A stretch of 64,000 bases of DNA from Arthrobacter sp. ISL-48 (GTDB taxonomy: Bacteria > Actinomycetota > Actinomycetes > Actinomycetales > Micrococcaceae), in the NCBI RefSeq assembly GCF_018613805.1, contig NZ_JAGGPL010000018.1, positions 1 through 64,000 on the forward strand, given 5' to 3'. Positions 25,130-58,110 of the stretch are shown one piece after another. The notes beneath the pieces were generated by a model that worked only from the letters and a program-made list of their open reading frames with translations, had not been told where the DNA came from and made no database searches. A program made the position numbers and the translations under genes. The stretch's first letter is position 1, and the number at the start of each line of letters is the position of its first letter.

Positions 25130-25668
25130 GAACTCTGTAGCAAGACCGCCACAAACCTCTCTTGAACCAGCCGTGGCAAGGGTTCTCCACTTACTAACAC
25201 CCGACTACCCACAACTTATCCACAGCTGTGGACAACAATCCACAGGAGTGAGGACCCAGTGGGGACGACAGCGCCCGCGCGCCATCATCCGATGTGAATT
25301 ACCTGCTTGTAAGTTATTAACACTGTGAATAATCCTGTGGAAATCCTGCGCTAACTTAGCGTTTCAGGGCATACCGTGGGCAGACGGAGCTTGGCTGTCC
25401 ACAAGGCACCCATTTCACGAGTAATTGTCCACTTAACCACAGGGGCTTCCCCAGCAGTTATCCACAATTGTGGAAATCCAGTACAGGTCCGTTTGAATAG
25501 CCGCTGGCCTGCGGGAAGTCTTACCTCCTGCCTGTCGAACTACAACTGTGTAAGTTACCAACAATGTGGATAACCTCTGTGGATAAGTCGCTGGTCACTG
25601 GTTACGGCGGACTTACCTACAGGGACCCAAAGGCGCGTTATCGTCCTGGCGGTCTGCTTAAAGAGCGC
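25130..25668. other. DnaA-box cluster, right of the MFS gene
   Basis: Four exact 9-mer DnaA boxes lie here: TTATCCACA at 25216-25224 and 25458-25466, and TGTGGATAA at 25565-25573 and 25578-25586. Close variants include TGTGGACAA at 25227-25235, TGTGAATAA at 25324-25332 and CTGTCCACA at 25395-25403. Two composite elements (25314-25345 and 25555-25586) share an AAGTTA-N-NNAACA-NTGTG layout. I see no protein gene. The cluster is about 17 kb from dnaA. Roles as a DnaA-titration site, regulatory site or accessory origin are all possible and untested. Confidence 0.65.
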
Positions 25669-41831: not shown

Positions 41832-42356
41832 GGAGGGGTGCCGCCTTTCATTGCTGCTGCCATGTCTGAACTGGAAACTCCGTCAGGGAGTCTCAGAGTA
41901 GTTGCCCCAAAAACCTGAACCTGCATGGTCCGTGCCTGCCGAACCACAGAGAAACCCAAGGATGGGAGCGCTGCTGACAGCTTAGCCGCAAGATCGGGGA
42001 TTAACCCATCTTCGGTAAGGATCCTGCCCTTCAACGGGCACCGGCCCAGGCATGGTCGGCAGTGCGGATCGAAATTGTTGTTTGAGGGAAATCAATTTTT
42101 TGGGATTAGTAGTGTTAATAACTGCTGTGGAAACTGTGGATAACTGGATCTCAGTGCGGGATCCAGCGGTTAAGGCCTGTTCATGGACTGTGGGTGGCGC
42201 AGGTTTTAAACAGGGTGTGGATGGGGATAACGTTTTGGTGGGTTTCGCCGGTCCACAGACGCCTTAAGGGTTTTAAGCCCATTAACCGCGGTTGTCCCCT
42301 TAAGTATCCACAGGGTTGTCCACACCCCCCTGTTAATAAGGGAGGAGTGCGCGGGA
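41832..42356. other. dnaA-dnaN spacer, oriC candidate
   Basis: This 525-base spacer has an AT-rich stretch (42068-42120) and DnaA boxes: exact TGTGGATAA at 42135-42143, TTGTCCACA at 42316-42324, and variants TGTGGATGG at 42216-42224 and TATCCACAG at 42305-42313. The AT-rich part may be the unwinding element. No gene is visible. It also holds the dnaN promoter. A functional test is needed to tell it from the spacer on the other side of dnaA. Confidence 0.75.
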
Positions 42357-43778: not shown

Positions 43779-44240
43779 CAAAGAGTTCCTCAAAACTTGC
43801 TTGCCTGCATTACCTGCAGCCCCAAGTCCGGAACCAGGATGCTGGCCCAGCTTAATCCACAGGGTTATGCACAGTCCGTGGATAATCGGCTACTGAGCCA
43901 CTCTAGGGGATCAAAACGCTAGAAGATAGCTGGGAAGTAGCTTGTGGATAATTACACGGTTGTGGTTCGAAAACAGGTGCTGTGAGGCAGTTCATCCACA
44001 GCCTGTGAAGGGCGCTTAATCACAGTTGGGGACAGGTATCCCGGCCCCGGCCGGTTTGACTCAGGGGTGCATTTTGCCCTAACGTTGTGAAGTCCTTTGT
44101 GTCCGCTTTTGGCCCCATCTTGACGTCTCAGACGCAATGCGTTCGAGCAGCCGGGGAAGCGTGCATATACAAAACTTAGCGTCGGCCAGTTCTTCCCCTT
44201 GATCGGGTGGGCGCACCTTTGATCCACTGGAGTAACTAAC
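43779..44240. other. dnaA-rpmH spacer with DnaA boxes
   Basis: This 462-base divergent spacer carries exact TGTGGATAA at 43943-43951 and variants: TAATCCACA 43853-43861, TTATGCACA 43865-43873, CGTGGATAA 43877-43885 and TCATCCACA 43992-44000. They lie in the dnaA upstream region, so autoregulation by DnaA is likely. The spacer could also be part of a bipartite origin. It contains no protein gene. Confidence 0.7.
44056..44085 (+). promoter_or_regulatory. Putative rpmH promoter
   Basis: TTGACT at 44056-44061 and TAACGT at 44080-44085 are separated by 18 bases, giving a plausible housekeeping promoter about 155 bases before rpmH. The -10 match is moderate. Confidence 0.45.
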
Positions 44241-44378
44241 GTGAGCAAGCGGACTTTTCAGCCGAATAACCGCCGTCGAGCCAAGAAGCACGGCTTCCGC
44301 CTTCGTATGCGTACCCGTGCCGGCCGTGCCATCCTGGCAGCCCGTCGTGGCAAGGGCCGCACCGAACTGTCGGCCTAG
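44241..44378 (+). CDS. rpmH: 50S ribosomal protein L34
   Basis: This 45-residue basic ribosomal protein begins '[20 protein letters not shown]' and ends '[12 protein letters not shown]', the universal L34 pattern. It is too short for most automatic cut-offs but is unmistakable. The start is a GTG at 44241, 12 bases after GGAGTAA. It is the first gene of the plus-strand group that runs to rsmG and on to parAB, and it is divergent from dnaA. Confidence 0.98.
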
Positions 44379-44416
44379 ATCTGACTCGTCGGTTTACATT
44401 TCTATGCGAGTTTAAG

Positions 44417-44827
44417 GTGCTGGCCACCCGCAACCGCTTGAGGACTGCAACCGATTTTTCAACAACTGTACGTTCCGGTGTCCGCAATGGACGCCGGAAC
44501 GTAGTGTTATATGCGGCGGCTATTGCTGCCGACGAACCCAGCCGGATCGGGTTCATCGTTTCCAAGAGTGTCGGGAACGCTGTGGTCAGGAACCTCGTTA
44601 AGAGGAGACTGAGGGAAGCCGGTGCCGCCTCGCTGAATGAGTACGGTACGGGGTTCGCCATAGTGGTTCGGGCATTGCCCGCATCCGCATCCGCCAGCTG
44701 GGATCAACTGCTGGCGGATTACAACGCTGCATTGGAATCGACCATGAACCGGTTGGGCAGCCGCCTTCCGCGGGCTGCTGTAGACGGTTCAACCGGTACA
44801 ACACAGGAAGGGACACAGCGTGCGTAA
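44417..44827 (+). CDS. rnpA: Ribonuclease P protein component
   Basis: This 136-residue basic protein assists the RNase P RNA in trimming tRNA 5' ends. Family signatures are '[20 protein letters not shown]', '[20 protein letters not shown]' and 'RRLREA', which is the RNR box with its Arg/Lys cluster. The start is a GTG at 44417, 38 bases after rpmH. It overlaps yidD by eight bases, so translation is coupled. Confidence 0.96.
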
Positions 44828-45215
44828 CGTGACAGCCGCCGTCGTCCGTTATCTTTACCCTGTGGCCTTCATCCTGGGCAGGGCTGCCTGGAACTTGCCC
44901 CGGAACATACTCATTCTGCTGCTGCTTGCTTACCGCAAGGTGATTTCCCCCTTGTACGGCCAAGTCTGCCGCTTCTTTCCTTCATGTTCGGCCTATGCCC
45001 TTGAAGCGATCACTGTCCACGGTGCCGTTAAGGGAAGCTGGCTTGCTGCCCGCCGCCTTGCACGTTGCCATCCATGGAACGCCGGCGGAGTGGACCACGT
45101 CCCCGCCGGGCACAGGGAATGGCCTGAAAACCAGACCCCCACAATTGTTGTGCTGAACAATCCGGACAAGTACTTGGCTGCTCAGACTGATGGAGAAGGC
45201 CGCCTTGCGGCCTGA
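44820..45215 (+). CDS. yidD: Membrane protein insertion efficiency factor YidD
   Basis: This 131-residue protein helps YidC insert inner-membrane proteins. The YidD core (about residues 25-95) is present: '[20 protein letters not shown]', '[20 protein letters not shown]' and '[18 protein letters not shown]'. An N-terminal amphipathic or membrane segment precedes it. The C-terminal ~30 residues are non-conserved. It starts with GTG inside rnpA and is followed by yidC after 16 bases. Confidence 0.95.
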
Positions 45216-45231
45216 CGAATAGGGATATCGT

Positions 45232-46209
45232 ATGGACTTCTTTGGAACAATCATGGCCCCGTTCAAGTGGCTGGTGTCCGTCATCATGGTCGGATTCCAC
45301 GACGGGCTGAGTGCCATTGGCCTTCCTGCCGCCAACGGCTGGACCTGGACGCTGTCCATCATCGGGCTGGTGTTGGTCATCCGCGCCGCCCTAATCCCGG
45401 TTTTCGTTAAGCAGATCAAGGCGCAGCGCGGCATGCAGTTGCTGCAGCCGGACCTGAAGAAGCTTCAGGATAAGTACAAGGGCAAGACTGACCAGTTGTC
45501 CCGCCAGGCAATGGCGCAGGAACAGATGGCCATGTACAAGAAGCACGGGACCAACCCGTTCTCGGCCTGCCTGCCGATGCTGATCCAGATGCCGTTCTTC
45601 TTTGCGCTCTTCCAGGTCCTCTCGGGCATCTCCCAGGCCAAGGACCAGGGTGCCGGCATCGGTGCCATGAGCCACGAGCAGGTCACGCAGTTTGATGAGT
45701 CCAGCATTTTTGGTGCCCCCCTCTCAGCGACTCTCCTGCACGGGGGCGGCGGCAGCGGGCAGATGGCCGTCAACATCCTCTCGATCATCATGATCCTTGC
45801 CATGACGGCATCGCAGTTCATCACGCAGAAGCAAATCATGGCCAAGAACATGTCCGAAGAGGCCATGGCCAGCCCCTTCATGCGCCAACAGAAAATGATG
45901 CTCTACATCCTGCCCCTCGTCTTCGGCGTGGGCGGCATCAACTTCCCCATCGGTGTCCTCATCTACTGGACCACCACCAACCTCTGGACGATGGCCCAGC
46001 AGTTCTTCGTCATCCGACGCATGCCCACGCCAGGATCACCGGCTGCCAAGGCCCTTGCCGAGCGCAGGGCCGCCAAGGGCCTGCCGGTCCTGCCTATCCT
46101 TGGTGGTAAGAAGGTCGACGTCGAAGCCGAGGCTGCTGCCGCAGCTGCTGTTGCAGAGACCAAGGGTCAGCGCACCCAGCCACAACGCAAGAACAGGAAG
46201 AAGAAGTAA
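45232..46209 (+). CDS. yidC: Membrane protein insertase YidC (Oxa1 family)
   Basis: This 325-residue insertase has about five membrane helices, as in Gram-positive Oxa1/YidC proteins without a large periplasmic domain. The conserved hydrophilic-groove Arg is in 'LVIRAALIPVFVKQIKAQRG'. The cytoplasmic loop 'DKYKGKTDQLSRQAMAQEQM' and 'KHGTNPFSACLPMLIQMPFF' are hallmarks. The C-terminus is a charged Ala/Lys tail ending in a run of basic residues, which may contact the ribosome. Its last base overlaps the khpB start. Confidence 0.96.
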   Translation: MDFFGTIMAPFKWLVSVIMVGFHDGLSAIGLPAANGWTWTLSIIGLVLVIRAALIPVFVKQIKAQRGMQLLQPDLKKLQDKYKGKTDQLSRQAMAQEQMAMYKKHGTNPFSACLPMLIQMPFFFALFQVLSGISQAKDQGAGIGAMSHEQVTQFDESSIFGAPLSATLLHGGGGSGQMAVNILSIIMILAMTASQFITQKQIMAKNMSEEAMASPFMRQQKMMLYILPLVFGVGGINFPIGVLIYWTTTNLWTMAQQFFVIRRMPTPGSPAAKALAERRAAKGLPVLPILGGKKVDVEAEAAAAAAVAETKGQRTQPQRKNRKKK

Positions 46210-46775
46210 TGTCAGCCGAGAGCACCGACCACGCCATTTCAGACGGGGTCCTTGACGATCAGGACGAGTCCGTGAGTGACGCTGCCGCGTCCCCTAAAGG
46301 ATCTGCTGCAAGCCGCCTGGAAGAAGAGGGCGACGTTGCTGCCGACTACTTGGAGGAGCTTCTGGATATTGCGGACATCGATGGTGACATTGACATCGAA
46401 GTCCGGAACGGACGGACATACATCTCCATCGTTGCCGAGGAAGGGTCGGACAGCCTTGACAGCCTCGTGGGTGAAGAAGGCGAAGTGCTGGAGGCTCTGC
46501 AGGAATTGACCCGGCTTTCTGTCCTTTCAGCCACGGAGAACCGCTCTCGCCTGGTGTTGGACATCAATGGCTACCGCAAGCAGCGTGCCGGACACCTGCA
46601 ACAAATTGCAGAGGATGCGGCCGCGTCTGTGAAAGCGAGCGGCAACGCTGTTGCCCTTGAGCCGATGAGTGCCTACGAACGCAAGATTGTCCACGACGCG
46701 GTTGCCGACCTCGGTCTGGTTAGTGAGTCCGAGGGCGAAGGCGCCGGACGACACATCGTAGTATCCGCTGACTAG
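46209..46775 (+). CDS. khpB: RNA-binding protein KhpB/Jag (KH plus R3H domains)
   Basis: This 188-residue protein has an acidic N-terminal ~45 residues, then a KH-like domain (about 45-115; 'DYLEELLDIADIDGDIDIEV' and 'GEEGEVLEALQELTRL') and a C-terminal R3H domain (about 118-186) with 'RSRLVLDINGYRKQRAGHLQ' and 'MSAYERKIVHDAV'. KhpB works with KhpA on RNAs that control cell-wall and division genes. The start ATG overlaps the yidC stop (TAATG). Confidence 0.92.
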   Translation: MSAESTDHAISDGVLDDQDESVSDAAASPKGSAASRLEEEGDVAADYLEELLDIADIDGDIDIEVRNGRTYISIVAEEGSDSLDSLVGEEGEVLEALQELTRLSVLSATENRSRLVLDINGYRKQRAGHLQQIAEDAAASVKASGNAVALEPMSAYERKIVHDAVADLGLVSESEGEGAGRHIVVSAD

Positions 46776-46795
46776 AGAATGCTGATCCGCTAATC

Positions 46796-47449
46796 ATGGT
46801 TGATATCACGGCAGCTGAACTGCTGGCGGCCGAGAAGATTTTCGGCGAACGCTTGGACCTCGCCAAGCGCTATGTTGAGCACCTGGCGACGTCCGGGACG
46901 GAACGTGGACTCATCGGCCCGCGCGAAGTCCCGCGGCTGTGGAGCAGGCATGTGCTTAACTGCGCAGTTATTGAAAGTGAAATTGGGCACGGCAGCCACG
47001 TTGCAGACGTCGGCAGCGGCGCTGGCCTTCCTGGACTGTGCCTCGCCATCGCACGTCCGGATCTGGAACTGACTCTCATCGAACCCCTGGAGCGCCGCGT
47101 GATCTGGCTTCAGGAGGTCGTGGATGATCTGGGACTAAACAATGTCACCGTCATGAGGACCCGCGCCGAACTGGCTGTGGGGCTCGTAGACGCTGATGTC
47201 GTGACTGCCCGTGCCGTTTCGGCCTTGATCAACCTCGCCGGCCTCACCATCCCCCTCCTTGCGGGGAAGGGCGAAGTTGTTGCCATCAAGGGCCGCAGTG
47301 CAAACGAAGAAATAGAGAAGGCGGCCAGGGTCATCCGCAGGCTTGGCGGGGTTCAGACATCCGTCCGGACGGTCGGTGGAGATCTCCTCGAAGAACCCAC
47401 CACGGTGGTACGCATCGTTGTAGACAAGTCCCAAAAGATTGCGGGCTGA
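46796..47449 (+). CDS. rsmG: 16S rRNA (guanine-527-N7)-methyltransferase RsmG
   Basis: This 217-residue SAM-dependent methyltransferase modifies G527 of 16S rRNA. Rossmann-fold motifs are 'VADVGSGAGLPGLCLAIARP' (SAM binding), 'LTLIEPLERRVIWLQEV' and 'VVTARAVSALINLAGLTIPL'. The 'RHVLNCAVIE' element of the family is present near residue 50. Loss of this gene commonly gives low-level streptomycin resistance. It starts 20 bases after khpB. Confidence 0.95.
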   Translation: MVDITAAELLAAEKIFGERLDLAKRYVEHLATSGTERGLIGPREVPRLWSRHVLNCAVIESEIGHGSHVADVGSGAGLPGLCLAIARPDLELTLIEPLERRVIWLQEVVDDLGLNNVTVMRTRAELAVGLVDADVVTARAVSALINLAGLTIPLLAGKGEVVAIKGRSANEEIEKAARVIRRLGGVQTSVRTVGGDLLEEPTTVVRIVVDKSQKIAG

Positions 47450-47532
47450 GGGCCCGCTAACGTCGGTCCGAAGGTGTAAGCGGTTAGGCTAGACAACGGC
47501 AGCAGAAGCTGAACGAGAGTGAGTGTGTCCCA

Positions 47533-48600
47533 GTGACCAGTAGCGAAGCCTCCACACAACGGATCCCGCCGTTTGTGTCCTTGGGGTCAGCACGATCAGT
47601 AACTGGGGCGGGCCTCGTACCAGGGCGTGGCGGCAATCATCCAAATCCGGTTTCAGATGCTGCCGTACTGTCAGCTGTTTCACGTGAAACAACCTCATCC
47701 GGTAGGACGAACGTTATCGACACGATGGATGACTCAAGCCCGATCGCCCGGGAACTAGCGCATGAGACCAAGCGCCGGGAGCGGCTCCTAGGGCGGGAGC
47801 TTCCCAAGCCGGAGAAGACCAGAATCTTTACGGTCTCTAACCAAAAAGGTGGCGTCGGCAAGACCACCACCACAGTAAACATCGCGGCGGCCCTGGCTGC
47901 TGCCGGACTCAACGTCCTGGTCATTGATATCGACCCTCAGGGAAATGCCTCTACGGCCTTGGGCGTCGAGCATCATGCCGACGTGGACAGCATCTATGAC
48001 GTCCTGATCAACGACTTTCCGCTCGCGGACGTGGTGGCTCCGTGCCCGGACATCAGTAACCTGATTTGCGCGCCAGCGACCATCCACCTGGCCGGCGCGG
48101 AGATTGAGCTCGTCTCGCTTGTGGCCCGGGAGCAGCGGCTACGCCGCGCCATCGATGTGTATTCCAAGGTGCGCGAAAAAAACGGCGAAGAGCGGCTGGA
48201 CTATATCTTCATCGACTGCCCGCCGAGTCTGGGCCTCCTCACCGTCAATGCGTTCTGTGCCGCTGGTGAGGTCTTGATTCCCATTCAATGCGAGTACTAC
48301 GCGCTCGAGGGCCTGAGTCAACTGCTGAAGAACATCGAGATGATCCAGAAGCACCTCAACGCTGACCTTGAAGTCTCTACTATCCTCCTGACCATGTACG
48401 ACGGCCGCACCAACCTGGCGGCACAGGTGGCAGCCGAGGTGCGGCAGCACTTTCCGGATCAGGTTCTGGGGGCCGTGGTCCCCCGTTCGGTGCGGATCTC
48501 GGAGGCACCCAGCTACCAGCAGACCGTCATGACTTACGATCCTTCCTCCAGCGGAGCCCTGTCTTATCTGGAAGCCGCAGCCGAAATCGCTGAGCGCTAG
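47533..48600 (+). CDS. parA: Chromosome-partitioning ATPase ParA
   Basis: This protein is a Walker-type ATPase that segregates chromosome origins with ParB. The P-loop is 'NQKGGVGKTTTTVNIAAAL', the switch region 'VIDIDPQGNAST' and the later 'IFIDCPPSLGLL' are standard. From the GTG at 47533 it has 355 residues with a poorly conserved ~75-residue N-terminal extension; an ATG at 47725 would give 291 residues. The parS site at 47676-47691 lies within the extension, encoding '-VSRET-', and would be upstream if 47725 is used. I record the longer form because the extension has no stop, but the start is uncertain. Confidence 0.93.
   Translation: MTSSEASTQRIPPFVSLGSARSVTGAGLVPGRGGNHPNPVSDAAVLSAVSRETTSSGRTNVIDTMDDSSPIARELAHETKRRERLLGRELPKPEKTRIFTVSNQKGGVGKTTTTVNIAAALAAAGLNVLVIDIDPQGNASTALGVEHHADVDSIYDVLINDFPLADVVAPCPDISNLICAPATIHLAGAEIELVSLVAREQRLRRAIDVYSKVREKNGEERLDYIFIDCPPSLGLLTVNAFCAAGEVLIPIQCEYYALEGLSQLLKNIEMIQKHLNADLEVSTILLTMYDGRTNLAAQVAAEVRQHFPDQVLGAVVPRSVRISEAPSYQQTVMTYDPSSSGALSYLEAAAEIAER
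47676..47691. promoter_or_regulatory. parS: parS site within the 5' part of parA
   Basis: This is an exact TGTTTCACGTGAAACA, the consensus ParB-binding palindrome. It lies between the two possible parA starts. Confidence 0.95.
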
Positions 48601-48666
48601 AATCTTCAAGAACTGCAACAACCGGAGTCAGGCAATGCCGGGCTCGTCCACTGGAGGGATTTATCC

Positions 48667-49929
48667 ATGAGCGAAAAGCGACGGGGCTTAGGCCGCGGTC
48701 TTGGCGCACTCATTCCAAGTTCCGCCGCTGGCACCGGGTCTGGCACCGGGACGGCCGTTTCTCGGCCGGTGGACCTTTTCTTTCCGGAAGGCCGGAAGAA
48801 AGTGGTTCCAGGCGACGGTTCCGTCGATACCGATGAAACCGGGGCACCGTCTCCCGCCTCCCCCTTTGGCTCCGACGCTCAGCCTGCAGCTGCAGTGAAG
48901 ACGGCCGCGGATTCAACGGCGAAGGTTGCCAGCAAAGCAACCGGCAAGGGGGCAGAGAAGCCGGCTACACCCAAGGTTGCCGCGACTGACCGGACTGCTG
49001 CAAAGGCCTCGACCAACGGCAGTGGGCGTGCGGGCGCTCCTGGAGCTACGGAGTCCGTGCACGCTGACGGCGAGATCGCCGGTGTGGACAATGGTGTAGA
49101 CCTCGTGGAAGTCCCCGGCGTGCGTTTCGCTGAAATCCCTGTCACGGACATCCATCCCAACCGTAAACAGCCGCGCTCCGTCTTCGATGAGGACGACATG
49201 GCAGAGCTTATTCACTCGGTGCGAGAAATCGGCGTCCTCCAGCCAATTGTGGTGCGGACTTCAACCGAAGAAGGTGGAGAACCGTATGAGCTGGTAATGG
49301 GCGAACGCCGGTGGAGGGCAGTACAGGCAGCTGGCCTGGCAACAATCCCCGCGATCGTGCGTGACACCACTGATGATGATCTCCTCCGCGACGCACTGCT
49401 GGAGAACCTTCACCGAAGCCAGCTGAATCCCCTGGAGGAGGCTGCCGCATATCAGCAACTGCTCGAAGACTTTGGAACTACCCACGAACAGCTCGCTGAC
49501 CGCATTGGACGCTCACGGCCTCAGGTGTCGAATACCTTGCGGCTGCTCAAGCTTCCCCCGCTGGTCCAACGCCGGGTAGCGGCCAGCGTTCTGTCTGCCG
49601 GCCACGCCCGCGCACTGCTCGCTCTTCCGGACGCTGCAGCCATGGAACGGCTGGCGCAGAAGATCGTGGCGGAAGGCATGTCGGTTCGTGCCACTGAAGA
49701 AGCAGTGACGCTTTATCAGGATCCTGCAAAGCCGGCTAAGAACAACATTCCGAGGCCTGGTGCACGTCACGAGCGCCTGGATTATTTGGCTTCTTCTCTG
49801 TCTGATCGCCTGGACACAAACGTCAAGATTTCGCTGGGCGTCCGTAAGGGACGTGTGAGCATCGAATTCGCCAGCGTCGAAGACCTGAACCGTATTATGG
49901 AGGTCTTGGCTCCTGGTGCCGAGAGCTAG
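48667..49929 (+). CDS. parB: Chromosome-partitioning protein ParB (CTP-dependent clamp)
   Basis: This 420-residue protein binds parS and spreads as a CTP-gated clamp. The N-terminal ~150 residues are a disordered Ala/Thr/Pro-rich region beginning '[20 protein letters not shown]', which contains the ParA-activating basic end. The CTP-binding motifs are '[14 protein letters not shown]', '[12 protein letters not shown]' and '[14 protein letters not shown]'. The HTH is '[20 protein letters not shown]'. The C-terminal dimerisation part is intact. It starts 66 bases after parA with GGAGGG upstream and ends in a terminator made from a parS. Confidence 0.96.
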
Positions 49930-49947
49930 CCCGACTAGGAGTCAATT

Positions 49948-49982
49948 GCGGGCCTGTTTCACGTGAAACAGGCCCGCTTTTT
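49948..49982 (+). terminator. parB terminator built on a parS palindrome
   Basis: A perfect 30-bp palindrome (15-base arms) at 49948-49977 is followed by five Ts. Its middle 16 bases, 49955-49970, are an exact parS. The GC clamp GCGGGCC/GGCCCGC plus the T-run are terminator features. Confidence 0.8.
49955..49970. promoter_or_regulatory. parS: parS site (in the parB terminator stem)
   Basis: Exact TGTTTCACGTGAAACA. It is the core of the 30-bp palindrome after parB. Confidence 0.95.
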
Positions 49983-50375
49983 GTTTATCGGCGGAGAGGC
50001 CAGGCCGATTGGGTATTGTTCCTCTGTCTCCTATCGCACTATTCCGCATGTTCTGCCAGTCATGGTTTCATGGTTGCCGTTGACGCGTTCCCCAGTGAGG
50101 ACTGGAACGCTTTCCGAAAACAATAGTCTCTTGTTCCTGTCTCGCTACGTACGTTTTTGATCGCGGCTTGGGTTTTGCTCGCAGGTTCAACTGTCGAGCC
50201 GCAGGATCCGCCGACCCAGCAGTTCCACCCAGCAGTTCCACTGCCGTAGTACGGTGGCCCCCACATGATTGTTTTCGCCCGAAGAGCCCTTTACAGGGCT
50301 GGTTTGATGTTGGTGGTATAGATTCCCTCTTCAAAGAACGCGAGAGCCGGTGCGAGTTCCGGGTGGAACGGTACT

Positions 50376-50391
50376 TGTTTCACGTGAAACG
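50376..50391. promoter_or_regulatory. parS: parS site, one mismatch
   Basis: TGTTTCACGTGAAACG differs from consensus only at the last base. Confidence 0.9.
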
Positions 50392-50553
50392 CCGGTCGAC
50401 GGAGGTGAACGAAGGGTGGGTCCGTGTGGGCGCAGCAGCGCGGGGTGCGGAATGCGCCGTGAGTCCCGTCGGGGGTGGCGATTCGAGTGGGAATAACTGC
50501 TCCCGCTCCCCTTCTTGCGGCACGGTTGGACGGTCCTTGTTATGTAGTGTCCC

Positions 50554-50569
50554 TATTTCACGTGAAACG
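50554..50569. promoter_or_regulatory. parS: parS site, two mismatches
   Basis: TATTTCACGTGAAACG keeps the whole central TTTCACGTGAAA core; the outer bases differ. Confidence 0.8.
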
Positions 50570-51454
50570 AGACAGGTTGTTCTGGACGGGATACTACGAT
50601 CGGCGGTTGACCCCCGGCGCTATCGGCTTCCGCAGTGAGGGTTGTGGGGTACCTTGGGAGACGGTCTGGGAGTTGGGACCGCATTTAGGAGAGCCACGGA
50701 TGGCGCCATGGTGGGACTCGGGTCTAGCTACCCTTGATGGAAATGCTGGGCCGAGTCGCTAGGTGACCGCCTCCACTAGGTGACTGCCTGCTTGCCTATC
50801 ACCACAGGGGTAGGCAGAAGAGCTAGTCATCTGGGATACTTCGTGACTGGGTAAAGGTGACCGAGCATAAGTCGCTCACGCTGATCGACAGAGTCAGCTG
50901 TGAGAATGAAGTATGCCGGGCCGACAGGAGACCGCCGTAGTCGATATACGGGTCGTCTTGGCAGCCCATTTACTGGAGTGACCGGTGTCCATGCGCCCAG
51001 GGTCCGCCGGTTTCGAACGGCTGCCGGGAAGTGGATATCGGGAGTCACTCCGTCTCCAGCGGACCGGCATCCCCTCTCTTTGGCGTTGGGTTGCCAATAT
51101 GGCGGCGGGCGACATTGCGGTCAGCGGGGCGACGGGTAGGCTGACAAATCGAACCCGCTCGCTCACTGATTTCACCCCTTGCGGCATCACCCTCGACGCT
51201 CCGCCCGCCGCATCAGACAATTGACTGCGGCCAACCTGATGACCATTTGTACGAGCTCGGACCGGCTCAGTATGCGTCGGCTCCTTGAGCACTGGATCTT
51301 CGCTGGGCAGTCGTCTAGACCGCGTTGACCATCCGCCGGTTCGCTTCTGCGGCTGCCTCTTGGACGGATTGATGGCCTCCGCAGATTTCCTGGGAGCAGG
51401 CCGCCCTACTGGCCAGCTGTCTGCCGGCGCGGTCCCGTTGTCCCTCCAGGCGTG

Positions 51455-51647
51455 GCCCGACTCGCTTTGGCGGGCCGAACACCAGGGCTGGCCCGAGTCG
51501 CTTTGGCGGGCCGAGCACCAGGGCTGGCCCGGCTTCGTTGGGCCGACCCCAGTGCTGGTCCACTTCGCTTCGTTGGGCCGACCCCAGTGCTGGTCCACTT
51601 CGCTTCGCTGGACCGCCCCCAGGGCTGGCCCGGCTCGCTTTCACGGG
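51455..51647. repeat. GC-rich tandem repeat, 31-36-bp units
   Basis: Five consecutive diverged units (51455-51490, 51491-51526, 51527-51557, 51558-51592, 51593-51627) and a partial sixth (51628-51647) share a 'GCCCG..TTCGCTT..GGGCCGA.C.CCAG.GCTG' pattern. Units one and two differ at two or three bases. No reading frame here looks like a protein repeat with selection. Confidence 0.85.
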
Positions 51648-52081
51648 TTGCCAGTCCCGGCATGCCTGCGACATGAACAACGACCCAGAGGAGCCTCCTG
51701 CCGCTATCCAGCAACGCCTACGAACGTCACGACCCTTCACCGTACAGTTTGATGGTGGGGTCGGCTCACTAGCTTAGTGGGGCAACATGGCTAGAGTCCC
51801 CCAAGGCATTTTGGATACGTGGCGATCAGAGCGACGACTGTCGGGGCAGATCGGGCTGGCGATCATTGTGACCGGGCCGTCGCCGGTGTAGTTCCGCACC
51901 TTGGGCCTGCGCCAGCGTAACGCCTTGGCGATACCCGCAGATGTCTCCTCATACTGCGCTGCTGGAGGATTCATCTGGGACCCTAGTACAAGCCCCACAT
52001 TGTGCAGCCGCGGCGCTTCCGCCACCGCCCTCCCTTAGCAAGAACCCCGTGCCTGGCTGTGAATTATCCGGTGGATATCGC

Positions 52082-52102
52082 TGTGGATAACTTTGTGGAT
52101 AA
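52082..52102. promoter_or_regulatory. Pair of exact DnaA boxes in the parS region
   Basis: TGTGGATAA occurs at 52082-52090 and 52094-52102, separated by three bases. Direct repeats this close could hold a DnaA dimer. The site is about 8.3 kb from dnaA. Confidence 0.7.
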
Positions 52103-52196
52103 TGCGAGCTTAGGGGGCGGCTGCTGGCAAGAGGAGAGTTGGGGACTTCGTACAACAATGTCCCCCTTTTGATGGGTCCCTTGCCGGCATCACTTT

Positions 52197-52212
52197 TGTT
52201 TCACGTGAAACG
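52197..52212. promoter_or_regulatory. parS: parS site, one mismatch
   Basis: TGTTTCACGTGAAACG differs from the consensus only at the last base. It is about 100 bases from a DnaA-box pair. Confidence 0.9.
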
Positions 52213-52426
52213 GTGTGGTCAGTGCGACCCGGCTTCTTCGCAGGGGGCTAAATCGCCGTATAGAGGAGAATTTCGTCGCGTTTTATGAGTGGTGACACGC
52301 CCGGGGCAACTGTCGAATCACCCACCTCCCGATGTCTTGAACTGACGGCCGCCACTTCCCCTCGCCGTCGTCTGCGACGCTGGCTCATCGGCAGACGAAT
52401 TCCACCCCGCGCCCCCTTGGCGGGCC

Positions 52427-52447
52427 TGTGGATAACATTGTGAATAA
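52427..52447. promoter_or_regulatory. DnaA box pair (one exact, one variant)
   Basis: TGTGGATAA at 52427-52435 is followed three bases later by TGTGAATAA at 52439-52447, the same spacing as the 52082 pair. Confidence 0.65.
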
Positions 52448-53032
52448 CTTCTGGGGATAACTCTCACACAGCCGCCCAGCACAGGGATTCCGGGCGTAGT
52501 GGACGTGGCGAAAACTCCTGGATGCTTCTGTTGGCGGCACCGTCCGGCCGTACCGTGAGCGCGGATGTCCGTGTCATTCCGGCACCGAAATCGTGTCTCC
52601 CGTCTGCGAGGACCGACTCACAGTGGCGGACCAAGTCGTCCTGCGTTCTTTAGGTTCCGAGGTGGGCTCCTCGGATAGCTAGGTTGAGACGCCTTGTCGC
52701 GCACCTAGAGCTCCTTGGCCAGAACTCCTTGGCTTGGGCACTGCGGAGTACAACGCCGGCCACTGGGGCGTCTGGTTCGACGGCCGTGGTTGAGCCACCG
52801 AGTAGCCTCCGTCCGTTGCGCTCAGGATGAGAGGTTCGCTATTGAGCGTTACGCTCTGCGGCAAATCCTCCCATCGGTTCGGACACCCCGCATTGATCCA
52901 GCTTCGGCGTGATCTGCTCCCCCGCCTGTCATGGGTGGTTCCGACCCAGACTGCAGACGACATGTAGGCAGCCCGCGTGTGGTCTGGCATGACGTCCTGG
53001 GTCAGGGCAGCGCTTCAGCTCACCAGTCCCCC

Positions 53033-53048
53033 CGTTTCACGTGAAACT
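53033..53048. promoter_or_regulatory. parS: parS site, two mismatches
   Basis: CGTTTCACGTGAAACT keeps the 12-14 central bases; both end bases differ. Confidence 0.8.
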
Positions 53049-53825
53049 CTGACCTCGATGTGAGGAGCCCTACGCGAAGTTCATGCCGCGCCTGATGTCC
53101 CTGCGGCCGTTCCGTGCGGCAGTTCCTACGATCTTGTTCTCGCCGGTGTCCATCCGTTACAGGACTTGCCAAGCGCCGTTGCGGAGGCGCGCTGGCGTTG
53201 GCGTAGCGGCAAAGCACCTGCCGCGGAGAGGCGATAGGACTAACGGCTGGAGCGAATCGGGTGGGCGTGTCGCCTGGGCAAGAGCGGTCGGTCTGTTCGC
53301 GCGAACCTCCATCACCCTGACGGCGGTAGTGGTTTTGGCCCATTAGGCTGGTGCCTCTGGCAGATGATACTTCGGTCTGTAGGTGGCTCCTATAAGACGG
53401 TTTATGGTGGGGAGATCGGATATTGTCGCCAGGGTGTGGCAGACAAATTCTGGAGTTGCACGTGGGTCATGACCAGCACAGTCGTCCAGCGAAGACTCCT
53501 ATCACCATTGCTTCCAAGGGTTGTGGAATCCGATTTGCGGCGTGAACAACGGCGATATGGCAGGATCCGCGGATTGGAACCGCTTAAGGGGCGCTTTAGA
53601 GCTGGTGAGACTTTCGTGCGGGCCAGGCTACCAGTTCAGTGCGGCACTAGTCACTTGGCACGCAACCCAAGGGCGCTAGAGAGCGCGCCCAGGGAGGGGG
53701 GCCAAAAAGCGTCTACGGCAGCGAGGGAAGACTACTTTGGTTTGATCCTGTTGCAAGCGCCCCATCGGGTGTTGGGTTCTTCGGAGTGTCCACACAAAGG
53801 TGAGTGATCGCCGCTTGGAGTACCA

Positions 53826-53841
53826 CGTTTCACGTGAAACA
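53826..53841. promoter_or_regulatory. parS: parS site, one mismatch
   Basis: CGTTTCACGTGAAACA differs from the consensus only at its first base. Confidence 0.9.
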
Positions 53842-54038
53842 ACTCGTCGGAAGATTCGTCTCTGGTTGCTAGGTCCCCTTCGCTATACAAGGCATCCGGT
53901 GCCTGCCGAAGGGCTCCGGGATGTCGACAAGATTCCGCGCATTCAGCTAATCCCTGGTTCAGGTGCCGGCTTCATCGAAAGTGAGCCTCGTGATTCTGCT
54001 TCTGGAGAGCCTGCGCTGGTTCACCGGCTATTCAGTCA

Positions 54039-54087
54039 CCTTGGCGTCATACTGCCTTCGGGGTGCCAGCCCCGTCGCACGCCAAGG
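54039..54087. other. Nested inverted repeats, possible structured element
   Basis: Perfect 9-bp arms CCTTGGCGT and ACGCCAAGG enclose a smaller stem CGGGGTGCC..GCCCCG at 54060-54075. It could fold as a branched hairpin in RNA or DNA. No function is assigned. Confidence 0.4.
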
Positions 54088-54469
54088 CACCAGAACCGAT
54101 TCATGATTCTGACCGAAGTGATAGGAATAGTGCGAGAAGGTCCGGCGTGGGTCAATGAAAGCGCCAGCTTTTGGTTGTGAAGTGATTTCCGAATACTCCA
54201 CGACCAACGGGGTACGTGTCGTTTATCCCCAATGTAGGGATCGCGGACAACCAGTGTTTGAGTTGGCGATCAGCGCGACAGCTCCTGTCCCACTGAACAG
54301 TCCACCCACCAGGAGTGGGATTCTCTGCAAATCAGCAAATCCACCCGAATGATGTGGCGCCTCGGCGGCTTGTCACACCGCTACTTCCGAGTTTGGCACC
54401 CAGCGAGAATAAAGCTGGAGATTGCCTAGCCGGGCGTGAAGCGCCATTCCGGTGTGGATCGGCATCGCG

Positions 54470-54485
54470 TGTTTCACGTGAAACA
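54470..54485. promoter_or_regulatory. parS: parS site
   Basis: Exact TGTTTCACGTGAAACA. Confidence 0.95.
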
Positions 54486-54612
54486 GCCGGTATTTCCGGT
54501 TCGCGTACCCAAACACGAACTCATGCTGATGCAGGTGCTCCGACATCCAGCCGGCGCTCCCCGGGCTTGCTTCGCGTATCGCGGCAACATATGGCGGCAC
54601 ATGGTCTTCGGA

Positions 54613-54628
54613 TGTTTCACGTGAAACA
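54613..54628. promoter_or_regulatory. parS: parS site
   Basis: Exact TGTTTCACGTGAAACA, 143 bases after the previous one; it is the last parS before trxA. Confidence 0.95.
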
Positions 54629-54853
54629 AGGCCACATCGTGGCGGCGCCAGGCTAGTCAATGAAGCAACCTACTCTTCTTCGAATCAAAGTGCACTGAGG
54701 CCGCTACTAAGGCAGCGACGATAAGTAGTTGCCCGAATACAGACAAACTGGATTGTTTTCCACCGAAGAGCTGTCCTCAACGGGTCAGGAGAAGACGGTT
54801 AGCCGTGGCACAGACTGGGCTGGAAAATATTGAGCCGGACTGGACAAAGAAAA

Positions 54854-54881
54854 TGGCCACCGCTTCGGGAAGCGGTGGCCA
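54854..54881 (-). terminator. Terminator of trxB-trxA
   Basis: Twelve-base arms (TGGCCACCGCTT and AAGCGGTGGCCA) with a four-base loop lie about 50 bases beyond the trxA stop on the minus strand and are followed by TTTTCTTT. Confidence 0.85.
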
Positions 54882-54931
54882 CAAACTCAAGTTGCCAAGC
54901 TGTGCTCAGGTACCGAGAGGAGACTAGGTCC

Positions 54932-55258
54932 TCAGGAGAGCACGTCTGCGAATTCCTTCTCGAAGAACTGCTTGGGCTTGGCGCCGATAACAGTGCTCTT
55001 CACCTGGCCGTTCTGGAAGAGGTAGACGGCGGGGATGGAGGTAATTCCGTATTCAGCCGCGATGGAGGGATTATCGTCCACGTTAACCTTGACGACATTA
55101 ACCTTCTCGCCGTACTCAACGGAGATTTCGTCGAGGATGGGGCCAAGTTTGCGGCACGGCCCGCACCATTCAGCCCAAAAATCCACGATGACCGGCTTCT
55201 CGGCTGACAGTACGTCTGTTCCGAAGCTTGCATCTGTTACGTCTTTGGCGTTGCTCAT
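54932..55258 (-). CDS. trxA: Thioredoxin
   Basis: This 108-residue thioredoxin is a general dithiol reductant. The active site is '[13 protein letters not shown]' with Cys32 and Cys35, and the conserved cis-Pro is in '[13 protein letters not shown]'. Length is exactly that of the family. It lies 37 bases after trxB on the same strand and ends at the hairpin 54854-54881, so the two form an operon in the order trxB-trxA, probably transcribed from the SigR-type promoter before trxB. Confidence 0.97.
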
Positions 55259-55295
55259 AACCTTGTCTCTCTCTTCGATTGTCGGGTTACGCGGG

Positions 55296-56252
55296 TTACG
55301 CGTGAAGGTCTGCGAGGTAGTGCTCTACATCGATGGCGGCGACACACCCTGAGCCGGAAGCTGTGATGGCCTGGCGGTACGTGGGGTCCACGACATCGCC
55401 GGCAGCAAAAACGCCAGGAACGCTGGTCCGGGAACTGCGGCCCTCTACGGCGATAGTTCCGGCAGGGGTGATCTCCAGAGTGTCCTTGACCAGTTCAGTG
55501 CGCGGGTCGTTGCCGATCGCCACAAAGACACCGGTCACAGCCAGGTCCGAGATAGTTCCGTCCACGAGATTCTTGATCTTTAGTCCCGTGACCTTGTCCT
55601 GCCCGATGACGTCGTCAACAGCGCTGTTCCAGATAAAGCTGATCTTCTCGTGGGCCAGGGCGCGGTCGGCCATGATCTTGGAGGCCTTGAGGGAGTCGCG
55701 CCGGTGAACCACCGTAACTGACTTGGCAAACTTGGTCAGGAAGAGCGCCTCTTCCATGGCAGAGTCTCCTCCGCCGATGACGGCGATGTCCTGATCCTTG
55801 AAAAAGAAACCATCGCAGGTTGCACACCAGCTGACGCCGTGCCCGGAAAGCCGCTTTTCGTTAGGCAAGCCAAGTTCGCGGTAAGCGGACCCGGTCGAGA
55901 GAATAATTGCGCGGGCCTGAAAAGACTCACCGGTAGCGATGGTGACAGTCTTGATGTCGCCGTCGAGCTGCAGCGCCGTGACATCCTCGAACTGGATCTC
56001 AGTCCCAAACCGTGCCGCCTGCTTTTCGAAGTTCTCCATGAGGTCAGGACCCATGATGCCTTCCGGGAAACCCGGGTAGTTTTCGACGTCGGTGGTATTC
56101 ATCAGTTCCCCGCCGGCGGTGACAGATCCTGCCAGAAGCAACGGCTTCAGGTTGGCACGCGCGGTGTAGACGGCTGCCGTGTAACCAGCCGGGCCGGAGC
56201 CGACGATGATGACATCACGTACTTCGGACGCGGTGTTTTCTGCGTTGCTCAC
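55296..56252 (-). CDS. trxB: Thioredoxin reductase
   Basis: This 318-residue NADPH-dependent flavoprotein reduces thioredoxin. FAD-binding is marked by '[20 protein letters not shown]', the redox pair by '[11 protein letters not shown]' (Cys143 and Cys146), NADPH-binding by '[20 protein letters not shown]' and the C-terminal FAD block by '[20 protein letters not shown]'. I chose the GTG at 56252 with GGAAGAGG upstream; the frame is open to 56306 but that extension has no ribosome site. A SigR/SigH-type promoter lies 60 bases upstream. Confidence 0.97.
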
Positions 56253-56311
56253 TGAACGGTGAACCTCTTCCTTAGTCGATGCGCTGGCCTTGAGGGCCGG
56301 CCACATGGCAC

Positions 56312-56337
56312 AACTGAATCTTGATGATGAATATTCC
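56312..56337 (-). promoter_or_regulatory. SigR/SigH-type promoter for trxB
   Basis: On the minus strand GGAAT (56337-56333) and GTT (56314-56312) are separated by 18 bases, matching the GGAAT-N18/19-GTT promoters of disulfide-stress sigma factors SigR (Streptomyces) and SigH (Mycobacterium). trxB is a classic target of these factors. Use in this organism is inferred. Confidence 0.75.
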
Positions 56338-56499
56338 GGGCGCCATGGAAACGGAGGAACCGTGAATCAGGGCACAGAGTCACCTCTACAAGACGCCATA
56401 CCAGATTACCGTCTGCAGACGCCAGAGCCGCGTCCTGTGACCGCCGAAGCAACTCGACGCAACATAGACGCGGCCCGGGGCCGAACACAACTGCCAGCG

Positions 56500-58110
56500 C
56501 TACTGGATCTTGATCTCCGCAAGGCGAAGCCCGTAACCGTACCGGGTCTTGGGAGCAGCCAGTTTCGGGAGTGCCTTGATGTTGATGATGACGTACTGGG
56601 CCTGGACCGGCTCAGCCAGCGGCATGGTCAGGTCAGTTGAGGTGAAACTGTTCGTTCCCACCAGCTTGGCACCGTCCACGGATGGGCGATCGTTGGTGAG
56701 GACGCTGATGTTTCCGCCGGATGCTCCCAATTGGTTCAGGGTGATGGAGGAAATCCGGGCCGAGTTCTTAAGCTTGACAATGAGCGGTACGCCTTCGGGG
56801 GCCAGCCCGCCCCACGCTTCCGTGGCGAACTCCATGTCCGACCAGTAACTGGCAGCATTCCCGTCAAAGGCCTTCACCAAATCGCCGTCGTAAGTGGCAG
56901 CGAAGTCGAAGTCCCCCTGCCGGGTGATGCTCTCAATGGCTGGTGGCGCCGCTGGAGGCGCGGAACTCGCCGTCGGGCCGGTAGAACCGGTCCCCGGCGT
57001 GGAAGAAGAGGACGCACCGGAGGTGGTGTTTGCCTGCGGATCGCTTTTGAAGAGGCTGCCAAGGTTGGTAACAGCGAACACCAGGCCGGCAATCAGGACG
57101 ACGGCGAGAAGGCCGCCCACAAGCCAGCGCATGGAACGGGGTTCGCGCTCGGCTTCGTCCTCGTAGTCGTCCCCGGGCTCCGAAGCGGGCGGCATGGGCC
57201 TCTCAGATGAGGTGGACCGGGCAAAAGCAGGAAACATCTTCTTCGAGCCATCTGCCGCGCGTGGTTCCCTGGCCTCGGCTGGCTCTTCATCGGCGACGTT
57301 CGGATCCGCTGCAGCGTTGCCATAGTCGTCCTCCGACCAGAGCGACACCTTGGGAGAGCCGGGGCCCGGGCCGTCGTTCGATCCGGTGGTTTCCGAGCTT
57401 GGAGCATCAGCCTGCGGCATAACCGGCTGGACAGGCTGTGGTGCGGTGGCCTGCTGCCGGGCAGCGAAGTCTCTGGACGATTCAGCGCCCGGGGCATCCC
57501 TGCTGGCTCCCGCTCCACTGAAAGCGGCGGCATTTGCGGCACCCGAAGCGGCGGCACCTGCTGCCGCACTGGCACCTGGCGCACCCGAAGAAGGAGCCGA
57601 CGTCGGACGGGCCGGCGGCCTGGGGGGAACCACCGGGGCCGTCCCGTGAGCGTCAACCTCGGCCGGGTGGTTGTCCCGGTAACTGATGTAGCCGGCATCG
57701 ACGTTTTCTTCGTCGTCGTACGGTTCCGGCTCCTGCGACCGCGGCTGGCCGAAGATTTCACTGCCCAGCGTGTCCGTGAAGAAGGGCTCAACGTAAGGCG
57801 GGTTGGAGGCGACCACGAGGTCCAGCAGGTCTGCGGCTGAAGTGTGGTTGGTGATCAGGTACGTGGCAGCGTCGGTCACGCCGAGGTCCAGGACCTGGAC
57901 GTTGCCCGGGCGCTCACCCGTGGCAACCTCGCGTGCGCTCTGCGCCACCTGCTCGGTGTTGTCCGGCCCGGCAACCAGAATGCTGACCGGACGGTTGAGA
58001 ACCTGGTCCACCCCGTCCAGCACCAGATCGTGGCCGTGCGAGGTCAATACAGTGGCTGTGACCTTGTACCGGCCGCCGAGTACTGATCCAACATCGATCG
58101 GGTGGGACAC
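56500..58110 (-). CDS. Pseudokinase-like membrane protein with C-terminal discoidin-like domain, separate from MurJ
   Basis: This 536-residue protein has an N-terminal kinase-fold remnant (about residues 1-100): 'GSVLGGRYKVTATVLTSHGH' and 'NRPVSILVAGPD' mimic the glycine-loop and Lys strands, but no 'HRD' or 'DFG' motif occurs, so it cannot be an active kinase. A long Pro/Ala/Glu/Asp-rich cytoplasmic linker follows, then one membrane segment at about 327-349, then an extracytoplasmic discoidin-like domain (about 400-536). In mycobacteria the equivalent pseudokinase is fused to MurJ (MviN) and is bound by FhaA when phosphorylated. Here it is a separate gene, one gene downstream of murJ, with AGGAGGAACAC before the GTG start. 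Confidence 0.85.
   Translation of the reverse strand: MSHPIDVGSVLGGRYKVTATVLTSHGHDLVLDGVDQVLNRPVSILVAGPDNTEQVAQSAREVATGERPGNVQVLDLGVTDAATYLITNHTSAADLLDLVVASNPPYVEPFFTDTLGSEIFGQPRSQEPEPYDDEENVDAGYISYRDNHPAEVDAHGTAPVVPPRPPARPTSAPSSGAPGASAAAGAAASGAANAAAFSGAGASRDAPGAESSRDFAARQQATAPQPVQPVMPQADAPSSETTGSNDGPGPGSPKVSLWSEDDYGNAAADPNVADEEPAEAREPRAADGSKKMFPAFARSTSSERPMPPASEPGDDYEDEAEREPRSMRWLVGGLLAVVLIAGLVFAVTNLGSLFKSDPQANTTSGASSSSTPGTGSTGPTASSAPPAAPPAIESITRQGDFDFAATYDGDLVKAFDGNAASYWSDMEFATEAWGGLAPEGVPLIVKLKNSARISSITLNQLGASGGNISVLTNDRPSVDGAKLVGTNSFTSTDLTMPLAEPVQAQYVIINIKALPKLAAPKTRYGYGLRLAEIKIQ

Follow-up and report, generated by a model that had tools for sequence, protein, structure and literature searches.

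The coupling of replication initiation to chromosome segregation in bacteria is still an open question, and in the literature consulted here, most examples of such coupling are either protein-level (ParA acting on DnaA) or loci of Caulobacter and Vibrio. The subject here is a 64,000-nt stretch of Arthrobacter sp. ISL-48 (contig NZ_JAGGPL010000018.1, positions 1 to 64,000; referred to as the window), in which about 4.9 kb between the partition gene parB and the thioredoxin gene trxA hold seven predicted partition sites (parS) together with DnaA boxes. On sequence evidence alone, a compact cis element is indicated in this large soil genus, consisting of two DnaA-box arrays, one parS, and an AT-rich patch. 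The conservation of the arrays around this single parS suggests that the start of replication and the separation of the copies may be wired together in one piece of DNA.

The parB-trxA interval as a whole is, as predicted from its sequence, a chromosomal parS centromere. Nine matches to the 16-bp consensus TGTTTCACGTGAAACA with at most 3 mismatches were found in the window, compared to 0.21 expected, and this number was reached in none of 100 shuffles. The exact core of twelve bases, TTTCACGTGAAA, occurs 9 times in the whole assembly (4.54 Mb in 37 contigs, completeness 95.86), each time in the region from parA to trxA. An earlier note on this DNA had listed seven parS in the interval, one in parA, and one in the parB terminator; all nine were recovered at these positions and represent the sole exact cores of the assembly. 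The several near-consensus sites beyond chance expectation, their adjacency to parA-parB, and their nearness to oriC are what is expected of a chromosomal ParABS centromere. The site within parA (parS 1) is read in the parA frame as V-S-R-E-T, and this frame is open through the site in all 37 genomes examined; the partition site probably doubles as protein-coding sequence. As a side observation, the same-genus genome G023 has two exact parS cores about 0.5 Mb from the cluster, one on each side, unlike the genome of the window.

The two pairs of DnaA boxes reported in the earlier note were found at the given positions, with those at 52082, 52094, and 52427 being perfect copies of TTATCCACA and that at 52439 (TTATTCACA) carrying one mismatch. 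However, the pairs are actually parts of two tandem arrays of about three boxes each (A and B; Table 1), and the boxes are not interleaved with parS at large, as had been claimed, but sit around one particular parS. Both arrays are on the same strand, and the order of this composite element is array A, one parS (the embedded parS), the AT-rich patch, and array B. Array A has the sequence GTGGATATCGCTGTGGATAACTTTGTGGAT in the window and is similar in most species. Tandem boxes with at most one mismatch occur only 4 times in the genome of the window, 3 of them in the composite element and 1 in oriC.

The earlier note had proposed comparing the parB-trxA spacer across related genomes for length and parS count. 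We collected the parB-downstream regions of 36 same-genus relatives, 35 of which reach trxA and, together with the window, yield 36 spacers (L053, which ends before trxA, was omitted). These spacers are 3.9-13.2 kb long and contain 6 to 11 parS cores each. A search for tandem DnaA boxes (score of at least 27 of 30, 11-13 bp apart) revealed exactly two same-strand clusters in every one of them, always on the strand opposite to parB and 312-382 bp apart. Conserved DnaA boxes within the parS region, as expected of a DnaA-binding centromere of the Caulobacter kind, are thus present in 36/36 spacers. Overall, the 36 spacers contain 142 tandem pairs, whereas none of 10 shuffles contained any and none were found in the flanking sequence (436 kb), and the word TGTGGATAA is present in all 36 spacers (1.5 expected).

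The position of the embedded parS is likewise conserved. Counting from the central box of array A, a parS core follows after 93-140 bp in 29 of the 36 species; parS-like sites are found on the same side in L055 (1 mismatch, 118 bp), L063 (2 mismatches, 118 bp), and L042 (3 mismatches, 129 bp), and L047, L058, L059, and L060 have a parS on the other side of array A, at a distance of 84-104 bp. For the 29 species, the standard deviation of the logarithm (ln) of the distance between array A and the embedded parS is 0.08, compared to 0.32 for the next parS to the right and 0.54 for the next to the left. Since these neighbors are found anywhere from 503 to 2144 bp (right) and from 541 to 8147 bp (left) away, the embedded parS appears to keep its place, unlike the others, whose positions shift. 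That two same-strand arrays are conserved and stand at nearly constant distances to one parS strengthens the connection of initiation to partition that the earlier note had proposed on the basis of the boxes. The distances to array A fall in steps of approximately 11-12 bp (107, 114-118, 127-131, and 139-140), which are unexplained; the best period tried was 11.8 bp (mean vector 0.77, compared to 0.64 for 10.5 bp). Helical phasing of parS to array A is not claimed, as such steps could also arise if 12-bp boxes were gained or lost.

Furthermore, the stretch 50-90 bp beyond the embedded site is AT-rich in the 32 species with a site between the arrays (mean AT content of 0.516 compared to a background of 0.395; reached in 0 of 20,000 permutations), with 24 of the 32 exceeding the 80th percentile of their own background. 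The other parS do not show such an enrichment on either side (0.396 and 0.403). A word search of the patch and of the DNA between the embedded parS and array B revealed no motif above the level of shuffles. The patch could possibly be a bend or a site for an architectural protein.

Beyond the spacers, tandem boxes are similarly confined. In 16 further same-genus genomes, 71 tandem pairs were found and sorted by hand on parB positions (with oriC placed in six genomes by the same 6.3-6.4 kb distance to parB): 53 are located in the parB-trxA spacer, 16 in oriC (one each), 2 approximately 15.6 kb beyond oriC, and 0 elsewhere, while a reversed control pattern resulted in one match. The 2 pairs beyond oriC (G026 and G035) lie at a second DnaA-box cluster. 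In the window, this cluster comprises five perfect DnaA boxes on both strands at 25216-25586, between the genes for an MFS transporter and a rhomboid protein and about 17 kb to the left of oriC. The corresponding region of 10/10 relatives also has a box cluster, beside the rhomboid gene in eight and 1-1.5 kb further in L097 and L101.

A pattern search of 395 genomes of the family, which serves as a pointer only, matched 75 of the 77 same-genus rows according to a manual count; the exceptions are G031 and G410, the former although both arrays are present in the scan of the 36 spacers. The matches in those g53 assemblies that begin near dnaA lie approximately 1.6-1.8 and 15-16 kb from the start and correspond to oriC and the left DnaA cluster, not to the centromere. 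A genome-wide check of 25 other genomes of the family detected tandem boxes in 22, and among genomes with located parS, they lie inside the parS field only in g28 and g40. Five genomes from these two sister genera, which were picked for tandem matches, as well as Sinomonas cellulolyticus (L127) have two same-strand arrays, 366-454 bp apart, in the parB-trxA spacer (at a looser cut-off, score of at least 26). Among 80 named loci, 24 spacers with tandem boxes were identified, belonging to Pseudarthrobacter, Paenarthrobacter, Arthrobacter, and one Sinomonas, some of which are also part of the 36-spacer set; 36 were scored without tandem boxes, 12 were under 300 bp and left unscored, and 8 had neither trxA nor trxB on the piece. 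As the GTDB genus is not given for the named loci, the numbers of 24 and 36 do not represent a clean split between inside and outside of the genus.

The gene-free parS field looks more widespread than the DnaA element, as suggested by fields lacking DnaA arrays in Arthrobacter sp. MYb227 (9.2 kb), Arthrobacter sp. MYb229 (7.0 kb), Glutamicibacter creatinolyticus (3.9 kb), and Tersicoccus (2.2 kb). The first two (L136 and L145), with 5 and 4 parS, respectively, exceed the field of the window in size and show no coding signal. The spacer is close to 0.1 kb in Rothia mucilaginosa and Psychromicrobium and 0.3 kb in Kocuria polaris. In Cellulomonas (seven species) and in several further distant genera with a sizeable spacer, the same interval is mostly coding and without parS, which supports the view of the earlier note that a gene-free parS stretch is unusual. 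Arthrobacter gandavensis, Arthrobacter koreensis, and Actinomyces bowdenii contain parS in partly coding intervals, with nine parS in an 8-kb interval in the last. It should be noted that the codon model was trained on the window and is approximate on distant genomes, yet it detected genes in Cellulomonas and others. Other families of the same order contributed 21 pieces, one of which gave no parB match; parS were found downstream of parB in 5 of the other 20, with eight in L084.

Around the composite element, the spacers, as far as their sequences tell, keep a gene-free, parS-rich character while the sequence itself changes. No 300-bp piece with a coding score above 0.1 was found in 34/36 same-genus spacers. 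The two longer spacers of L050 (13.2 kb) and L064 (9.4 kb) show a coding signal on the parB side, yet both DnaA arrays and the embedded parS are present. When the spacer of the window was compared to the others with blastn, the matches were largely confined to the two DnaA arrays and to the parB terminator, including its parS, with a few short, low-scoring pieces besides. An alignment of 18 spacers of one subgroup (12 fetched relatives and 6 named loci) yielded five blocks above the cut-off, corresponding to three parS, array A, and the trxA terminator. The divergence of the spacer is higher than that of 4-fold degenerate sites of parB in three pairs of genomes (0.301/0.154, 0.542/0.387, and 0.547/0.438) and lower in three (0.178/0.204, 0.573/0.688, and 0.563/0.589); since all but the first pair of each set are near saturation, this provides only rough evidence that the filler may be free to change.

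Both parB and trxA point into the field, each with a terminator at the edge, and both genes are therefore predicted to be stopped there. Since a scan revealed six terminator-like sites compared to 4.4 expected, only the two strong edge terminators, which have by far the longest stems, are considered meaningful. Terminator-like hairpins within 250 bp were found at the parB end in 33/36 spacers (with that of L050 being weak and 183 bp into the spacer), at the trxA end in 31/36, and at both in 28/36, and a parS core lies inside the parB-side hairpin in 12/36; these are raw counts from a finder without a chance control. Binding of ParB to parS 2 could influence the termination or autoregulation of parB. 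The field is flanked by parA and parB on the left and by trxA-trxB, on the opposite strand, on the right. The coordinates of all features are given in Table 1.

Table 1. Features of the parA-trxA region in the window, with coordinates, strand, and supporting details.
Feature	Coordinates	Strand	Details
parA (AAA_31/ParA-type ATPase)	47533..48600	+	From the list of open reading frames; Pfam AAA_31 E 2.8e-56 on 47710-48597; start codon approximate
parS 1	47676..47691		0 mismatches; inside parA frame; same place in 37/37 genomes
parB	48667..49929	+	Pfam ParB_N 8.2e-35, HTH_ParB 6e-35, ParB_C 3.5e-7
parB terminator	49948..49977	+	13-bp stem, built around parS 2
parS 2	49955-49970		Within stem of parB terminator
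Gene-free parS field (predicted centromere body)	49983..54852		No coding signal, no Pfam match above cut-off, no cross-species open reading frames
parS 3	50376..50391		1 mismatch
parS 4	50554..50569		2 mismatches
DnaA array A	52070..52102	-	Three head-to-tail boxes, 12-bp period: 52070-52078 imperfect; 52082-52090 and 52094-52102 perfect
parS 5	52197..52212		1 mismatch; embedded parS of composite element; 117 bp between its core and the central array A box; position conserved
AT-rich patch	52247..52286		Between parS 5 and array B; position from species average
DnaA array B	52427..52460	-	52427-52435 perfect; 52439-52447 and 52452-52460 one mismatch each
parS 6	53033..53048		2 mismatches
parS 7	53826..53841		1 mismatch
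parS 8	54470..54485		0 mismatches
parS 9	54613..54628		0 mismatches
trxA terminator	54853..54882	-	Closes field on right
trxA (thioredoxin)	54932..55258	-	Pfam Thioredoxin 1.3e-29; convergent with parB

Among the possible readings of this locus, we rank first, and give an even chance of being correct, that it is a terminator-insulated, ParB-loading centromere containing a datA-like DnaA-control element that would be coupled to partition and act on DnaA after initiation. With its numerous parS, the field would let ParB clamps load and then slide along DNA that few RNA polymerases cross, resulting in a compact partition complex, while DnaA would oligomerize cooperatively from the two arrays. These arrays may be brought together with the help of the AT-rich patch and of ParB bound to the intervening parS, in the role that IHF is held to have at datA. 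Since the element is located approximately 10 kb from the predicted oriC (the dnaA-dnaN interval, 41832-42356), it would be copied soon after initiation, and the two copies could bind or inactivate DnaA and thereby hold back re-initiation; ParB occupancy of the embedded parS would make this control depend on the state of the partition complex. Binding of both proteins, oligomers, looping, and function are what we infer from the anatomy of the element. A more specific version, possible though on balance unlikely, is that ParB on the close parS acts as the architectural partner of the two DnaA oligomers, taking the part of IHF in datA, that the partition complex thereby sets DnaA activity, and that selection keeps the field gene-free so that ParB clamps slide undisturbed.

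Several observations weigh against the DnaA-control reading. The nearby parS is inconstant in the six spacers from g28, g40, and Sinomonas: in L188 and L192 it lies approximately 105 bp from array B, L191 has a degenerate site ahead of array B (read by eye), and no close parS is present beside the arrays in L189, L190, and L127. Approximately 1.85 kb separate the two arrays of Arthrobacter sp. MA-N2 (L114), and its spacer has a coding signal. Array B, unlike array A, fell below the conservation cut-off in the alignment of 18 spacers, the AT-rich patch is a composition signal only, its motif search having come up empty, and the species counts treat same-genus species as independent, which they are not. 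Moreover, the parS-like site of L042 may be dead, because parS with at least 3 mismatches did not recruit ParB in Corynebacterium glutamicum (PMC7083940, partial text). Finally, the control of DnaA by ParA in Bacillus subtilis is independent of parS location, according to the part of PMC7614844 available.

The next-ranked explanation, which we consider doubtful, is a segregation switch of the Caulobacter type, in which DnaA-ATP on the arrays would release, license, or block ParB at the embedded parS, so that segregation starts when DnaA rises. The location of the arrays inside the centromere and the tight distance between parS and array are consistent with it, as is the precedent of Caulobacter, where DnaA binds parS and where DnaA levels too low for replication still start segregation (Mera et al. 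2014, as cited in the available part of PMC6399470). However, only one of the nine parS is near the arrays, multi-box arrays of the oriC kind exceed the need of a single contact, and the arrays that occur without a close parS (the three spacers named above) make the arrays look primary.

Less probable still, and in our view unlikely, is a plain DnaA titration site that came to lie by chance in gene-free DNA near oriC, with the adjoining parS having no role in DnaA control. This would fit the same three spacers, the high density of parS in the field (about one per 600-700 bp), and the cluster at 25216-25586, which, like its counterparts in 10/10 relatives, lies outside the parS field and illustrates that box clusters near oriC need no parS. 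It accounts poorly for the finding that in 36/36 same-genus spacers, array A has a parS or a parS-like site at a distance of 84-140 bp, while the distances of neighboring parS vary by hundreds of base pairs or more, and for the AT-rich patch, which is placed relative to the embedded parS and to no other parS tested.

We rank last, equally and as highly improbable, unannotated genes and a second origin. In the former case, small proteins or RNAs would be encoded in the interval, and parS and DnaA boxes would be incidental. Stretches of 4.9 kb without genes are rare in bacteria, the field contains long chance open reading frames (ORFs) of up to 234 amino acids, and in three of the six pairs compared, the divergence of the spacer is slightly below that of 4-fold sites, but four of the six are near saturation. 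The mean best-frame codon score of 300-bp spacer pieces is -0.195 (highest -0.02), which is near the level of permuted spacer letters (-0.24, standard deviation 0.06) and far from that of known genes (+0.29, 5% quantile +0.15). None of 10 ORFs in the spacer of the window exceeded the curated Pfam cut-off, with one weak sub-threshold match (ProSAAS, E 0.013), and none of its ORFs of at least 50 amino acids (stop to stop) had a match among the ORFs of the 35 other spacers. When the six-frame ORFs of all 36 spacers were compared all against all, none matched more than one other species; the best 60 rows were sister pairs whose DNA itself is alike (L038/L041 and L039/L056) plus two short matches over parS or DnaA boxes. 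A search of Rfam (E up to 1, positions 44000-58000) returned a single 17-bit match to a viral element (cut-off 140) on the trxA terminator, and with parS masked, all 9-mers found in at least 16 of 36 spacers, a level reached by no shuffle, belong to DnaA boxes or the trxA terminator. Hidden protein genes were rejected based on ORF comparison, GC content by codon position, codon score, and Pfam, and hidden conserved RNAs based on the lack of credible Rfam matches and of conserved words other than parS, DnaA boxes, and terminator; non-conserved transcripts may occur within the spacer. The statement of the earlier note that about 4.9 kb lack a recognizable gene is therefore confirmed by codon score, Pfam, Rfam, and ORF comparison, and the conserved protein genes that it had named as evidence to the contrary were not found among the ORFs of the 36 spacers, while its suggestion of hidden RNAs is not borne out. 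As a further feature of the field, a 35-bp unit is repeated in approximately 5.6 tandem copies at 51446-51640, overlapping the longest chance ORF (50894-51598); blastn detected no match to this repeat in other same-genus spacers.

The origin itself is assigned to the dnaA-dnaN interval, because a stretch consisting of a box plus ACTAC(T/G)AAT, together with AT-rich DNA, is kept there in 11/11 genomes; we take this stretch to resemble the DnaA-trio element of known origins. That the arrays are a copy of oriC able, now or once, to open DNA is suggested by the only other tandem boxes in the genome of the window being located in oriC, and by known bipartite origins with two box clusters (PMC4285127, partial text), but this was rejected, since no conserved origin-type stretch is seen by eye beside either array, while DnaA boxes with a conserved unwinding-type element are found in the dnaA-dnaN interval, where the highest 40-bp AT content is also higher (0.65-0.73 compared to 0.55-0.68 in the array interval, with slightly overlapping ranges).

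The composite element is kept in DNA that is otherwise free to change, as far as can be judged, and could be excised or altered at known bases. The gene-free field, in turn, naturally lends itself to testing whether ParB requires DNA free of transcription in order to spread.

In the openly licensed literature, no paper treating parS, DnaA boxes, and Arthrobacter together was found, and among the matches listed, the arrangement is not described in any title or beginning of an abstract. Within the actinobacteria, Streptomyces reportedly has a DnaA-box cluster near oriC, H69, described by Smulczyk-Krawczyszyn et al. in 2006, which is thought to restrain initiation and is said to contain no parS. 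While the composite element is similar as an actinobacterial box cluster near oriC, the better match to H69 in the window may be the cluster at 25216-25586, which is possibly its counterpart. In C. glutamicum, ten near-consensus parS, nine of them intergenic, form one cluster that extends over 35 kb and lies 73 kb from oriC, according to the portion of PMC7083940 available; here, in contrast, seven parS are located in one gene-free block of 4.9 kb together with DnaA arrays.

Known loci that bind an initiator resemble the composite element in parts. On chromosome II of Vibrio cholerae, the rctA/parS2 locus binds RctB and affects initiation, with a parS located within an initiator-binding locus that tunes initiation and with ParB counteracting there (PMC6399470, partial text); however, the initiator is RctB instead of DnaA, and the chromosome is a secondary one with a plasmid-like origin. 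The datA locus of Escherichia coli, which inactivates DnaA and, downstream of a tRNA operon, combines DnaA boxes with a single IHF site (PMC10950094, partial text), is likewise a DnaA-box cluster outside of oriC, as is the composite element, with a possible bend site within the cluster here. The available part of that paper does not mention parS at datA, whereas in Arthrobacter, a parS lies between the arrays, and the AT-rich patch is without a demonstrated IHF-type site. Another such locus is the parS region of Caulobacter crescentus, where DnaA binds at the centromere (PMC6399470 and PMC6667618, partial texts) and initiator sites are located beside parS, 8 kb from the origin (PMC6667618) compared to approximately 10 kb here. 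In comparison to what these texts describe for Caulobacter, three features set the locus presented here apart, besides its occurrence in actinobacteria: one parS is flanked by two predicted head-to-tail DnaA arrays, an AT-rich patch is present, and the gene-free field extends over several kilobases.

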